Shown piece after piece: positions 8,019 to 13,174 of a DNA stretch of 40,814 bases (positions are counted from its first letter, which is position 1; each line of letters opens with the position of its first letter). A model generated the notes under the pieces. The model had not been told where the DNA came from. It worked only from the letters and a program-made list of their open reading frames with translations, and searched no databases. Source of the DNA: Acidimicrobiaceae bacterium (GTDB lineage: Bacteria; Actinomycetota; Acidimicrobiia; Acidimicrobiales; RAAP-2); NCBI GenBank assembly GCA_947456095.1, contig CANGPX010000004.1, positions 1 to 40,814 on the forward strand. Reading direction: 5' to 3'. The position numbers and the translations under genes are program-made.

Positions 8019-8072
8019 ATACCTAGTGCGCAACCATTGAGGGCAGAAGCGCCTGTCCGAGGAGGAACACCC

Positions 8073-8936
8073 ATGTCCCGTGCTTCATGGTCGTCTTCAA
8101 CCGATGCACTTGGTCTGTTGATGCGGGATCTCGACCAGTACCCCATGCCGAACTACGACGAGCAAGTCGAATTGGCCAAATTGGTGGCCAAGGGTGATGA
8201 AGAAGCAAAGCAGCAAATGGTCGCAGCGAACCTGCGCTTGGTCCTTCACTGGGCCCGTCGCTACGCCGACCGTGGCGTTGAAATGGTTGACCTGGTTCAA
8301 GAGGGAACCTTCGGCCTCATGCGAGCAGTCGAGAAGTTCGACTGGGAGCGTGGTTTCCGGTTCTCGACCTACGCGACCTGGTGGATCCGCCAGTCCCTGC
8401 AGCGTGCTGTTCAGCAGCACGGCCGCACCATTCGCATCCCGCTCGAAGTCGGCGAGCAGTTGCAGCGCCTCGAAGCCGCGACTGCTGAGTTGACTGGTCT
8501 GTTTGGTCGTCCACCGACCGATGATGAGTTAACCGAAGCGACCGGCATGAATGCGGCAACTCGAAAGAACTTAGAAGGTTTGGCTGGCGTCACCGCGAGC
8601 CTCGACCAGCCGGCAAATTCGGACAGTTCAACTGTGCTTGGTGACCTTGTTGCCCCTGAGACCACCAACTTCTACGATGCCGTCGACCAGCAAATGCTCG
8701 ATGACCGCTTAGGCGTCGCGCTTGGTCGTCTGTCTGATCTCCAGCGCCAAGTCATTCGCATGCGCTTTGGCTTAGATGGTCAAGACCCAACGTCACTGCA
8801 GGCAACAGCCGAGAGCCTTGGTGTTGGCGTTCGTCGAGTTCGCCGGGCCGAAGAAGAAGCTCTCGCAACCTTGGCGGTTGACAACGAAGTGCTCGGGGTC
8901 TACCGCCCAGACGAGTTCGAAACCTCCTACAACTGA
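8073..8936 (+). CDS. RNA polymerase sigma-70 family factor (primary-like, group 2)
   Basis: The start is ATG 8073, placed by a strong Shine-Dalgarno AGGAGG 7 bases upstream, giving 287 residues. Region 1.2 is DALGLLMRDLDQYPMPNYDE. Region 2 contains NLRLVLHWARRYADRGVEMV, DLVQEGTFGLMRAVEKFDW and the -10 recognition helix RGFRFSTYATWWIRQSLQRA. Region 3 follows. Region 4 has LSDLQRQVIRMRFGLDG and a degenerate helix-turn-helix TSLQATAESLGVGVRRVRRA. There is no long region 1.1, and the size fits group-2 alternative factors such as SigB or HrdD rather than the housekeeping factor. The candidate SigR/SigH-type promoter in front of it suggests induction by oxidative or heat stress. It converges on rluD with 7 bases between the stops. 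Confidence 0.93.
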   Translation: MSRASWSSSTDALGLLMRDLDQYPMPNYDEQVELAKLVAKGDEEAKQQMVAANLRLVLHWARRYADRGVEMVDLVQEGTFGLMRAVEKFDWERGFRFSTYATWWIRQSLQRAVQQHGRTIRIPLEVGEQLQRLEAATAELTGLFGRPPTDDELTEATGMNAATRKNLEGLAGVTASLDQPANSDSSTVLGDLVAPETTNFYDAVDQQMLDDRLGVALGRLSDLQRQVIRMRFGLDGQDPTSLQATAESLGVGVRRVRRAEEEALATLAVDNEVLGVYRPDEFETSYN

Positions 8937-8943
8937 GCAGCGC

Positions 8944-9912
8944 TCAGCGATCGAGGTCGATTCCGGTTCCAACGAGCCGTGAGAGGTCTTCGGGAAGCTC
9001 TGCAGCGAACGAAACGTACTCTTGCGTCACTGGGTGCTCAAAGCCAAGTCGATACGCGTGTAAAAAGAACCGGTCGCGCCCTAAGTCTTTGTCGATCAGT
9101 CGTCCATATCTGGCGTCACCCACGACTGGGTGACCAATGGCGGCTAAGTGCACGCGGATCTGGTGGGTTCGGCCGGTTTCGAGCTTGCAGCGCACAAGGG
9201 TGCGAGGAGATGAACCCTCATAGCGTTCGACCACTTCATAGGAGGTGCGCGCTGGTCGGCCGTCTCGTGACACCGCCATCATGGTCGGGCTGCGCAGCGA
9301 GCGACCAATAGGAGCGTCGACAACTCCTCGCTCATCTACTACGAGGCCGCGAACAAGTGCCAAGTACCAGCGGTCAACGTCTCGAGCTGAGAGCTGTCCA
9401 ACGAGCGACTGATACGCCGCCTCGGTGCGAGCAACGACGAGGAGGCCGGAAGTGCCTCGGTCCAGGCGGTGGACAATACCGGGGCGGTCAGGGTGGCCGC
9501 CGGACAAAAATCCCACCTCAGCAATATCTGGATAGCGTGCCAGCAGACCCGCCACCATTGTTCCGGTGCGATGTCCTGCTCCTGGGTGAACAATGAGGTG
9601 TGCTGCTTTGTTGATGACGAGAAAACTCGGGTCTTCAAACATCACCTCGACTTCGACGTCTGGTTCAGCTTCAACACCAAGGGGCGCAGATGAAGTCACG
9701 ACTGCTTCAACGCGATCGCCTTCAGATAAGACAAAACTGCGGAGCCGGTCATTTCTGCCGTTGACCGAGACCACCCCTTGTTTGATGAGTCCAGCGATCT
9801 CATTGCGAGAGATACCAGTGAGCATCGAAAGCGCCCGGTCGAGTCGCACGCCACCGAGCAGCGGCGGCACTTCAACGTCAACGGTTTCTTGTTCTGGTTC
9901 TTCAATGGCCAT
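8944..9912 (-). CDS. rluD: 23S rRNA pseudouridine synthase, RluD/RluA family
   Basis: ATG 9912 is chosen because GAGGAG lies 7 bases upstream; the product has 322 residues. An S4 RNA-binding domain (RLDRALSMLTGISRNEIAGLI) spans about residues 23-70. The pseudouridine synthase domain contains the catalytic motif HRLDRGTSGLLVV with Asp151, then the family motifs GRTHQIRVHLAAIGHPVVGD and YGR. It isomerises uridines in large-subunit rRNA (the RluD sites in helix 69 by homology; exact targets unproven). It overlaps the end of lspA by 11 bases, the usual lspA-rluD pairing, so the two are cotranscribed and probably translationally coupled. Confidence 0.95.
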   Translation of the reverse strand: MAIEEPEQETVDVEVPPLLGGVRLDRALSMLTGISRNEIAGLIKQGVVSVNGRNDRLRSFVLSEGDRVEAVVTSSAPLGVEAEPDVEVEVMFEDPSFLVINKAAHLIVHPGAGHRTGTMVAGLLARYPDIAEVGFLSGGHPDRPGIVHRLDRGTSGLLVVARTEAAYQSLVGQLSARDVDRWYLALVRGLVVDERGVVDAPIGRSLRSPTMMAVSRDGRPARTSYEVVERYEGSSPRTLVRCKLETGRTHQIRVHLAAIGHPVVGDARYGRLIDKDLGRDRFFLHAYRLGFEHPVTQEYVSFAAELPEDLSRLVGTGIDLDR

Positions 9913-10372
9913 GGTCACTCCTCGGTCGGAAAACCAGGTTGAGCCCCAGCCACACACACCCGACCGTAATGGCCGCATCGGCAACGTTGAACACTGGCCA
10001 AATATGTGGGTCGAGAAAATCGACCACGCCATGGTCCGCGCGCATTGCTCTGCCAATGGCATTCCCAATTGCCCCACCGGTTAACAGCGCCAACGGTAAC
10101 GCAACGCTGTACTTGTGCGTCTTCCACAACACAATGAGCAAAACGAACACGATGACCGCAGCACCAATGAGCAACCACCGCCCAGACCCTTGCAGCGTTG
10201 AAAAAGCGGCGCCCTGATTCACCGCAAACACCAAGCGGACTTTCCAAAAAAGATCAACAGGAGACGACCACCGCTGCTCGGCAACAGCTTTCGTCCAAAG
10301 ATCAAAGCCCACCACGCCGCACAAGACCATCAGCGACACCGCACGAAGTCGAACCTGTTGGCTGACAGCCAA
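9902..10372 (-). CDS. lspA: lipoprotein signal peptidase
   Basis: The integral membrane aspartic protease removes signal peptides from prolipoproteins. Visible are four hydrophobic segments, the conserved FDLWTK near the end of TM1, the NQGAAFS motif, GGAIGNAIGR, and the two catalytic Asp residues in VVDFLDPHIWPVFNVADAAI. The frame continues upstream into the preceding gene, so the start needs a choice. TTG 10372, 4 bases after the traR/dksA stop, gives 156 residues and a normal first helix. GTG 10339 or ATG 10330 would shorten TM1. No clear Shine-Dalgarno supports any of these, and the start is the uncertain part of this call. It overlaps rluD by 11 bases. Confidence 0.93.
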   Translation of the reverse strand: MAVSQQVRLRAVSLMVLCGVVGFDLWTKAVAEQRWSSPVDLFWKVRLVFAVNQGAAFSTLQGSGRWLLIGAAVIVFVLLIVLWKTHKYSVALPLALLTGGAIGNAIGRAMRADHGVVDFLDPHIWPVFNVADAAITVGCVWLGLNLVFRPRSDHGH

Positions 10373-10376
10373 TCGA

Positions 10377-11495
10377 CTAGCGCTGGAACAAGCCAGAGCG
10401 CAGAATGCCTCCACGCTTACACGGGGCACACATCGGTGATGCGGGAACTGCCCTCAACCGGTCCTTGATGATGGGGTCACCACAACTCGAGCACATTCCC
10501 CACGTACCGCGGTCGAGGCGCCACAGCGCTTCGTTGATCTCATCAATTGCGTCACCGAGCAACTGCACCTGATAGAGCATGTCGGATCGGTCAACCGCGA
10601 TGGTTGATCCTTCGCCGCCAGCAGACTCGTCCGAGGTGTCATCGCCTGACTCACGTGATTCCCGCAGGGTTTCAGCTTGACCCATGAGGATGTCGATGAG
10701 CCGTTGTTCTTCAACCTTTTTCTCTTCGAGCATTGCGCGGATCTCATCTAAGAATTTCTGTTGCTTCAAATACGGGTTGACCTTTGGCTTCGGTGGAACC
10801 ACTGGTGCAGCCTTTTTTGGGGCTGGAGCAGCAGCCTTTTCTGGAGCGACAACTGGAGTCTTCTCTGCAGCCTTTTTGGCCGGAGCAGCCTTGGCCGGAG
10901 CAACGCTCTTCGCCGGTGCAGTCTTCTTTGTTGGGGCAGTCTTCTTTGCTGGGGCCGCAGCAACAGTCTTCTTCGCTGGACTGGCCTTGCTGGCGACAGG
11001 AGTTGTTTTCTTTGCGGGGGTCACAGCGACAGCCTTCTTCGCTGGCCTGGCCTTGCTGGCGACGGGAGTTGCCTTCTTCGCAGGTGCAGAAGCAACAGTC
11101 TTCTTCGCTGGTGCGGTCTTGCTTGCGACGGGAGTTGCCTTCTTCGCTGGTGCGGTCTTGCTTGCGACGGGAGTTGCCTTCTTTGCCTTGGTCACAGCGA
11201 CAATCTTCTTCGCTGGTGCGGCCTTGCTTGCGGCGGGAGTTGCCTTCTTTGCTGGGGCAGGTTTCGTGACGACAACTTTCTTAGATGGAGTGGGTGTTGC
11301 CGAAGAAGCCTTTTTCGCAGGCGTCTTCTTCACTACTGGAGCCGCCTTCGCAGGGGCAACTTTCTTCACTTCGGCCGACGTTGCGGTCGCAGCCTTTTTC
11401 GCCGAGACCGACTTCGTCGGTGCGGACTTCTTAACTGGTGCGGCTTTTTTTACTGCCTTGACAGTAGCTGCGGCTTGTTTCGATGCTTTGGGCAT
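10377..11495 (-). CDS. TraR/DksA-type zinc-finger protein with a histone-H1-like N-terminal tail
   Basis: ATG 11495 follows a strong AGGAGG. The 372-residue product has two unlike parts. Residues ~1-225 are almost entirely Lys, Ala, Pro, Thr, Val and Ser, with PAKK and TPVASK repeats, resembling eukaryotic histone H1 tails and the AlgP/HU-tail proteins. The C-terminal ~140 residues are a DksA-type module: a coiled-coil region (LKQQKFLDEIRAMLEEKKVE onward) and a CX2C-X17-CX2C zinc finger with Cys335, 338, 356 and 359. DksA-like proteins act in the RNA polymerase secondary channel; the tail would be expected to bind nucleic acid non-specifically. Combined function is inference. The position, between divIVA and lspA, is usual for actinobacterial TraR/DksA genes, though typical members are far shorter. 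Confidence 0.9.
   Translation of the reverse strand: MPKASKQAAATVKAVKKAAPVKKSAPTKSVSAKKAATATSAEVKKVAPAKAAPVVKKTPAKKASSATPTPSKKVVVTKPAPAKKATPAASKAAPAKKIVAVTKAKKATPVASKTAPAKKATPVASKTAPAKKTVASAPAKKATPVASKARPAKKAVAVTPAKKTTPVASKASPAKKTVAAAPAKKTAPTKKTAPAKSVAPAKAAPAKKAAEKTPVVAPEKAAAPAPKKAAPVVPPKPKVNPYLKQQKFLDEIRAMLEEKKVEEQRLIDILMGQAETLRESRESGDDTSDESAGGEGSTIAVDRSDMLYQVQLLGDAIDEINEALWRLDRGTWGMCSSCGDPIIKDRLRAVPASPMCAPCKRGGILRSGLFQR
11101..11178 (-). repeat. exact 39-bp tandem duplication within the H1-like tail
   Basis: Bases 11101-11139 and 11140-11178 are identical. Each copy encodes 13 residues of the ATPVASKTAPAKK type. Degenerate relatives of the same unit extend over roughly 10970-11250. The unit length is a multiple of three, so copy-number change would lengthen or shorten the tail without breaking the frame. 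Confidence 0.9.
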
Positions 11496-11556
11496 CTTTC
11501 CTCCTCGTCACGAAGCGCTGCGGTGCTTGTGCGGCTTGCACCCACGCAGACGAAGC

Positions 11557-11562
11557 AGGTTA
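11557..11562 (-). promoter_or_regulatory. candidate -10 TAACCT for the traR/dksA-like gene
   Basis: TAACCT on the minus strand matches TANNNT and would start transcription near 11550, giving a leader of about 55 bases. That leader contains a GGTGC/GCACC inverted repeat (11522-11542) before the AGGAGG site. No -35 match was found. Confidence 0.35.
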
Positions 11563-11587
11563 GCGGACGCGGACCGCCCCGTGCACG

Positions 11588-12316
11588 TCAGAGTGTTTCG
11601 CTGTCACCCTCGTTCACGTCAAGTGGGAAGATTGCCGCCTCGGGAGATGGCTCAATGGCGGGCACCTGCGAAGCCTGACGGATCTCTCGCACGGCCTCGC
11701 TTGGCTGAACGTGCACATCAATCCAGCGAAGCACCTCTTGCAACTGGCCAGTCAGGCGACTGCGCTCAGCGTCAAGTTGGTTGGCCAGGCCTTCAATCTC
11801 TGAGGTCAGGTTCACCTTGACGCTTTCAAGACGATTCACTTCATCACGCACTCGAAGCTCTGCTTCCACCGTGATTTGACGCGCCATGGCCTCTGCTTCG
11901 GCAATCTTTCTGGCCGCGTTCTCCGTTGCTTCACGTTCGGTCTGATCAACAAAGCGCTGGGCAAGCACCAAGGTGCGCTGGGTTTCTGCGGCAATGGCCT
12001 CAGCCGAAGGGCTGACTGCAACAGCAGGTGCTTCAACCACCGAGACAGGGCTGAGCGCAGCAACTGCAGGAGCAGATGCGGCAGCGTCGGTGAGTTCACG
12101 GTTCTTTGCCTCAAGTTGAGCAATGTGCTCAGCGGCCTGTCGAAGACGGTCTGAGGTTTGACGGTGCTGTTCACGAAGGGCGTCAACTTCAATAGCGACA
12201 CGCTCCAAGAACTCATCAACTTCATCAGCGACGTAAGAGTTGCGCTTGGCAGTGAATTCAACGGTGCGAATGTTCTCGAGCGCAGAGCCAGACTTTGAAG
12301 GTGCAGGAAGGGTCAT
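11588..12316 (-). CDS. divIVA: DivIVA-domain cell-polarity protein (Wag31-like)
   Basis: ATG 12316 gives 242 residues beginning MTLPAPSKSGSALENIR. The DivIVA N-terminal domain is seen in RTVEFTAKRNSYVADEVDEF and LERVAIEVDALREQHRQ. An Ala/Val/Pro-rich linker (about residues 75-115) follows, then a second long coiled coil (about 115-210). DivIVA/Wag31 proteins bind curved membrane at poles and septa and recruit wall-synthesis machinery. The gene lies downstream of ftsZ, yggS, sepF and yggT, its standard actinobacterial position. No Shine-Dalgarno is evident. A TACACT box 8 bases upstream suggests its own promoter with a very short or absent leader. Longer in-frame starts upstream lack support. 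Confidence 0.93.
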   Translation of the reverse strand: MTLPAPSKSGSALENIRTVEFTAKRNSYVADEVDEFLERVAIEVDALREQHRQTSDRLRQAAEHIAQLEAKNRELTDAAASAPAVAALSPVSVVEAPAVAVSPSAEAIAAETQRTLVLAQRFVDQTEREATENAARKIAEAEAMARQITVEAELRVRDEVNRLESVKVNLTSEIEGLANQLDAERSRLTGQLQEVLRWIDVHVQPSEAVREIRQASQVPAIEPSPEAAIFPLDVNEGDSETL

Positions 12317-12356: not shown

Positions 12357-12590
12357 TCAGATGCTGCGAGCGACGAACAGCAGCACAATCGTGACGAGCA
12401 TCACGGAAAAATCAACGCCACCGGTCGATGGCAGTGCTTTGCGAACCGGAGCAATCACCGGTTCGGTGATCGTTCGGAGCACGCTTTTGACTGCATCAAG
12501 CGGTCCACCATTTGACGGGAACCAACTGAGCAGCGCCGTCGCAACCAAGATATAGACGTAGATCATTAACGCCGTGCGGATGAGTCCCAT
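12357..12590 (-). CDS. yggT: YggT family membrane protein
   Basis: The 77-residue protein has two hydrophobic helices, at residues ~5-23 (TALMIYVYILVATALLSWF) and ~57-75 (VDFSVMLVTIVLLFVARSI), joined by the conserved loop with LRTITEPVIAPVRKALP. This is the YggT/YlmG signature. The family is linked by genetics to Z-ring or nucleoid organisation and osmotic response, with no defined activity. It starts 2 bases after the sepF stop, so the two are translated from one mRNA. The order ftsZ, yggS, sepF, yggT, divIVA is conserved in Gram-positive bacteria. Confidence 0.93.
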   Translation of the reverse strand: MGLIRTALMIYVYILVATALLSWFPSNGGPLDAVKSVLRTITEPVIAPVRKALPSTGGVDFSVMLVTIVLLFVARSI

Positions 12591-12592
12591 GA

Positions 12593-13174
12593 TCAGATGA
12601 GATCCCGTCGCTTCATCTTGGCGCGGTCTTCATCTGAGACCGAGGCCTGCGTCATCAAAAACACGCCTTCAGAGATCTTTTCCATCTTGCCGCCAAGACC
12701 GTGGGCCACACCGCTGCAAAAGTCAATGCAGCGACGCCTTGGCTCTTCTGGGGCGTCGGTGAGCGAAACAATGACCGAGCGGCCATTCTTAAACGCATCC
12801 GAGACATCTTTTGAGTCGCGGAACTCAACCACGTTGATCACCAGTGGCGGCTGTGGTTCGGGGGCAATGGGGCGAACGGTTGCAGCTTGAGGGGAAGTCA
12901 CAAGGGTAGGACCAGAGGTATAGGGATCGCGATTTGACCGTAGTTTGCCGAGTGGTGTCACAGGAGCGAGTCGGTCACCTGAACGTGAACGAGTAGGTCG
13001 CTCCATCTCTTGCTCGCCATCATCATCAACTTCTTCAAAACCCCGCTGGCGACTTGGTTGAGCACTGCGTGATGGCGACCGGCGTGGGGACGTCTCGATG
13101 TATTCCTCGTCCTCAAATCCTTCGTCAGTCAAACCCACGTAGGACAGTAATTTCTGCATCATTGAATTTGCCAT
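12593..13174 (-). CDS. sepF: cell division protein SepF
   Basis: The 193-residue protein begins with a short amphipathic membrane-binding helix (NSMMQKLLSYVGL). A charged, Arg/Pro/Ser-rich disordered linker covers about residues 18-105. The SepF core follows: NVVEFRDSKDVSDAFKNGRS, VIVSLTDAPEEP, RRCIDFCSGVAHGLGG and KISEGVFLM. SepF polymerises and tethers FtsZ to the membrane. Because Actinomycetota lack FtsA, and no ftsA is seen here, SepF is the expected anchor. The start ATG 13174 has AGGGGAA upstream. About 107 bp of non-coding DNA separates it from yggS and may hold a promoter; TAGATT at 13240-13245 is a candidate -10. Confidence 0.95.
   Translation of the reverse strand: MANSMMQKLLSYVGLTDEGFEDEEYIETSPRRSPSRSAQPSRQRGFEEVDDDGEQEMERPTRSRSGDRLAPVTPLGKLRSNRDPYTSGPTLVTSPQAATVRPIAPEPQPPLVINVVEFRDSKDVSDAFKNGRSVIVSLTDAPEEPRRRCIDFCSGVAHGLGGKMEKISEGVFLMTQASVSDEDRAKMKRRDLI

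Follow-up and report, generated by a model that had tools for sequence, protein, structure and literature searches.

The minus strand of the window, a stretch of 40,814 nucleotides from an Acidimicrobiaceae bacterium (contig CANGPX010000004.1), carries a real and conserved gene for a protein of two parts, a long histone-H1-like tail at the N terminus and a DksA/TraR-type module at the C terminus, and this architecture is conserved at one locus among relatives (Table 1). It is already known from DdbA of Streptomyces, of which the present protein is a widespread relative. We consider it fairly probable that we are dealing with an acidimicrobial DdbA-type protein, whose tail would lie on DNA and tether a polymerase modulator to the nucleoid.

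Table 1. Features of the ddbA-like gene and of its neighbourhood, in window coordinates.
Feature	Position	Strand	Basis
ddbA-like gene, 372 aa	10377..11495	-	ORF; module dN/dS 0.072, tail 0.24 vs G001
Shine-Dalgarno GAGGAGG, 4 nt 5' of ATG	11500..11506	-	sequence reading
N-terminal H1-like low-complexity tail, residues 1-235	10791..11495	-	composition, AF2, repeats; predicted disordered
C-terminal DksA/TraR-type module, residues 236-372	10380..10790	-	PF01258; Foldseek DksA2 4ijj, DksA 7khi/1tjl
Coiled-coil helix 1, residues 246-282	10650..10760	-	AF2, pLDDT mostly 90-97
Coiled-coil tip loop, residues 283-295, acidic; E295 at E. coli DksA D74 position	10611..10649	-	AF2; gapless register, 40 residues to first Cys
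Coiled-coil helix 2, residues 296-329; E319 at E. coli K98 position	10509..10610	-	AF2; gapless register
C4 zinc finger C335-X2-C338-X17-C356-X2-C359	10419..10493	-	sequence, PF01258
sepF	12593..13174	-	PF04472
yggT	12357..12590	-	PF02325
divIVA/wag31-like, upstream neighbour	11588..12316	-	PF05103 E 6e-12
lspA, signal peptidase II, downstream neighbour	9902..10366	-	PF01252 E 4.6e-28
rluD-type pseudouridine synthase	8944..9909	-	PF00849 E 1.5e-28
Sigma-70-family-like factor, convergent with rluD at end of gene row	8037..8936	+	sequence reading only

The Shine-Dalgarno sequence, the gene order and a module dN/dS of 0.072 against a sister species (G001) establish the reading frame as genuine, and the position of the Shine-Dalgarno sequence also favours a start at 11495, with the tail translated. 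For the tail, the same comparison gave a dN/dS of 0.24 over ~74 synonymous differences, a rough figure obtained from a gapped alignment of repeats. Purifying selection acts on both tail and module. An antisense open reading frame of 378 aa (10684-11820, plus strand) encodes hydrophobic FFAGA-type repeats that mirror the repetitive tail; it was rejected as an artefact because the ribosome-binding site, the Pfam domain, the gene order and the low dN/dS all belong to the minus-strand frame. It is a frame that an annotation pipeline could call wrongly.

The tail is built almost solely of A (31%), K (24%), P (14%), V (11%), T (10%) and S; it contains one R, has a net charge of +54 and shows 20 KK steps. 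AlphaFold2, run with 35 alignment rows, gave residues 1-220 a pLDDT of mostly 41-58 without secondary structure, and Pfam returned no match to the tail alone even at E 10. An earlier note on this DNA had described a tail of about 225 residues carrying TPVASK and PAKK low-complexity repeats; exact counting indeed found four copies of TPVASK and eleven of PAKK, and the long basic tail stands, with its extent corrected to 235 residues. The underlying DNA is tandemly repetitive, with a 39-bp unit that is 100% identical and 66- and 105-bp units that are 82-85% identical. Such repeats appear to break or collapse short-read assemblies, since the contig ends inside the ddbA-like frame in 12 of the 58 relatives, every one of the four same-genus members among them (L063-L065 and L120 among the loci), compared with a roughly estimated expectation of ~4%. 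Short-read assemblies, the present one among them, may therefore show a collapsed repeat number.

A search of the bacterium's own genome (~80% complete) for a second copy of the tail returned no match up to E 10. This uniqueness, together with the recurrence of the architecture at the corresponding locus of relatives, argues that the fusion of tail and module is not due to chance. The gene row reads sepF-yggT-divIVA, the ddbA-like gene, lspA and rluD, all on the minus strand. All 58 relatives have rluD after the module on the same strand, and all but L073, which is cut at a contig end, have a recognisable lspA in between. Of the same-family contigs that are long enough, most show sepF, yggT and divIVA on the upstream side.

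The C-terminal module bears the features of the DksA/TraR superfamily, namely a C4 zinc finger (C-SS-C-17-C-AP-C; PF01258, E 6.9e-7, above the curated cut-off) and a predicted coiled-coil fold. AlphaFold2 placed two long helices, the tip and the zinc finger with high confidence, and Foldseek ranked DksA2 of Pseudomonas (4ijj) and DksA of E. coli (7khi, 1tjl) at the top with probability 1.00, showing that the predicted fold is of the DksA type. Together with the tail composition and the CX2C-X17-CX2C spacing, these data bear out the earlier claim of a DksA/TraR zinc finger fused to an H1-like tail. The module misses the NCBIfam cut-offs for DksA equivalogs, with 41 of 105 bits for NF033459 and 38 of 115.5 for TIGR02420.

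We further compared the residues that contact the polymerase and ppGpp, counting back without gaps from the first zinc cysteine and taking E. coli DksA as reference. In this register the tip aspartate D74 corresponds to E295, which keeps the carboxylate charge, and the site-2 ppGpp lysine K98 corresponds to E319. Both replacements are typical of the class: among 56 Acidimicrobiia modules, the D74 position is E in 51, and the K98 position is E in 48 and D in 5 (53 together). In other actinobacteria, the former position is D in 43 of 52 and the latter is mostly K, Q or R. In E. coli, D74 of DksA is required for promoter control (PMC6488371; PMC7461557), a carboxylate at the tip position is said to be critical (PMC7461557), and the K98A substitution abolishes ppGpp binding to DksA (PMC10746185). 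Given Glu in place of both the ppGpp-contact lysine and the tip aspartate, any effect of the protein on polymerase is probably not potentiated by ppGpp in the E. coli manner, and a ppGpp-dependent DksA action in Acidimicrobiia is doubtful. The polymerase half is thus of the DksA type, as first supposed, but less DksA-like than was assumed.

Some ten members of the order, belonging to other families, have also lost one or more zinc ligands. The ligands are lost and the basic tail is mostly kept in L100, L107, L109, L111, L112, L114, L115, L117 and L118, and loss is partial in L101 and L108. Such zinc-ligand-poor modules with a basic tail recall cysteine-poor DksA2-type proteins.

Within Acidimicrobiia, nearly every copy uncut by a contig end carries a lysine-rich tail, the weakly basic tail of L096 being the exception; tail lengths span ~64-270 aa, depending on the chosen start codon. 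Across ~45 genera the lysine-rich composition is kept and the sequence drifts. The tail, which the earlier note had left to an orthologue survey, is therefore the rule in this class rather than missing from all orthologues. The nearest named relative, the Acidimicrobiaceae metagenome assembly Jr-11may16-13, has a module that is 91% identical. In the wider phylum, a match to the module profile was found in 112 of 158 sampled genomes, and a K-rich stretch precedes the module in 17 of 52 lspA- or rluD-linked copies and is absent from the other 35, counts that do not represent a frequency because the linked copies were partly picked for long frames. Many other Actinomycetota have a tail-less orthologue at this locus, so a coupling of the two parts is not a universal function of this gene. 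On a module tree of 131 columns with many unresolved forks, the minimum number of changes in tail state is six, which puts the gains and losses of the tail at about six or more; the modules of the window's genus sit on long branches. A plasmid search with a streptomycete-like module retrieved a Nonomuraea gerenzanensis copy at the rluD locus without a tail, and a phage search yielded one unannotated record (34%).

DdbA (SCO2075) of Streptomyces was reportedly described by Aldridge et al. (2013, NAR 41:4813, doi 10.1093/nar/gkt180), and DNA binding and condensation are said to have been published for the Streptomyces protein only. DdbA has an N-terminal H1-like and a C-terminal DksA-like domain and is reported to influence both the compaction of the spore nucleoid and stress resistance and to modulate polymerase with ppGpp (PMC9043899; PMC11942623; PMC11229371); its loss alters nucleoid compaction (PMC11942623; PMC11229371). 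The present protein shares with it the lysine-rich N-terminal domain, the DksA-like C-terminal domain and the C4 zinc finger. The locus may also be alike: the tailed module followed by lspA and/or rluD occurs in four genomes of 8-9.7 Mb (L152, L153, L155 and L157, genus g78), which we infer from genome size and sequence to be Streptomyces, and these genes follow the module in all 58 relatives too. In contrast, the D74 position is Asp in the streptomycete-like copies and Glu in Acidimicrobiia, which also have Glu at the K98 position; the acidimicrobial genome is small and its tail richer in PAKK. The acidimicrobial tail may have been acquired independently of that of DdbA.

Compared with DksA, DksA2 and TraR, the protein has the same predicted fold and PF01258 zinc finger but adds the long N-terminal tail and differs in its ppGpp and tip residues. 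HupS/HupB are HU proteins with an H1-like C-terminal tail; their PAKK/KAAK tail is of the same kind, whereas the present protein lacks the HU fold (PF00216 not matched), carries its tail at the N terminus and has a DksA module as partner domain. The likeness to eukaryotic linker histone H1 and to the H1-like proteins of Chlamydia and Burkholderia is confined to basic-tail composition, as the Pfam-negative, predicted disordered tail comes without the globular winged-helix domain of H1. The Chlamydia protein CTL0322, also named DdbA (PMC8343073), seems to share the name without being related.

Other actinobacteria put an H1-like tail on HU. The HU found in the bacterium's own genome is a single separate protein of 94 aa without a tail, and the HU of the three same-genus genomes that have one is likewise tail-less, leaving the ddbA-like protein as the bearer of the only such tail found. 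Among 30 HU proteins examined from Acidimicrobiales, 10 have a basic tail; L294, L296, L299, L301, L302, L310 and L320 are HU proteins with PAKK/KKTA tails of their own.

It is likely by analogy that the tail works on DNA and the module on polymerase. The disordered, highly basic tail would bind DNA without sequence specificity and help to compact or constrain it, as suggested by its composition and by the published Streptomyces protein. The DksA-type module would act on polymerase, so that a polymerase modulator tethered to the nucleoid would link the state of the DNA to transcription. DNA binding, polymerase binding and their coupling are each what we infer from these comparisons. The earlier note had raised this coupling, or else a nucleoid protein that kept the zinc finger, which in essence matches what has been published for DdbA/SCO2075 (PMC9043899; PMC11942623); that the architecture was a known one had escaped notice there. 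Against a DdbA-type reading we counted the replacements at D74 and K98, the zinc-ligand losses, the long branches, the missed equivalog cut-offs and the many orthologues that have no tail.

The change of the ppGpp-contact lysine to Glu and of the tip Asp to Glu, combined with the H1-like tail, opens a more specific and more tentative view, that in Acidimicrobiia the protein would act in the secondary channel independently of ppGpp while anchored to DNA, joining nucleoid packing to polymerase control without the alarmone. It is unlikely, though worth weighing, that we are instead looking at a nucleoid protein in which the tail compacts DNA and the DksA module, vestigial or put to a new use, provides a fold, an oligomer or a zinc element and has no part in polymerase regulation. 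The same two replacements, the retention of the tail in several families that have lost zinc ligands, and the lack of a tail on HU in the window's genus all fit such a protein. However, constraint is stronger on the module than on the tail (dN/dS 0.072 vs 0.24), the tip region GDVQFDEESGEGGT and DRERDLALS rank with the best-conserved stretches across the class, and Glu retains the carboxylate said to be critical (PMC7461557).

Still less probable is a polymerase factor in the first place, whose basic tail only tethers it electrostatically to DNA, RNA or polymerase, increasing its local concentration without compaction. The tail-less orthologues that occupy this locus in many Actinomycetota, the wide range of tail lengths with no conserved sequence, and the repeated gain or loss of the tail would suit it, but a tail of more than 200 aa seems longer than a simple tether requires, and published Streptomyces DdbA affects nucleoid compaction (PMC11229371; PMC11942623). 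That the tail is functionless padding from replication slippage, as its near-perfect repeats and the assembly breaks might suggest, is very improbable, given a lysine-rich composition maintained despite sequence drift and a tail dN/dS of 0.24.

Most of what is known of the class Acidimicrobiia comes from metagenome assemblies. Nearly all sampled members of this class have the DdbA architecture, which was described for sporulating Streptomyces, so its role is unlikely to be confined to spores. The tailed and tail-less forms of one syntenic gene across the phylum further offer a natural experiment on the contribution of an H1-like tail to a polymerase factor, and a possible action of the acidimicrobial protein independent of ppGpp deserves attention. 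Matches to a RelA/SpoT protein and to GreA-type and CarD-type factors are present in the bacterium's own genome, indicating that other players of polymerase and ppGpp control exist there. The genome also encodes a second, short and tail-less DksA/TraR-like protein (L001 269-514, contig C33) with only three cysteines in the zinc-finger region, and short DksA/TraR-like paralogues are present in most relatives.
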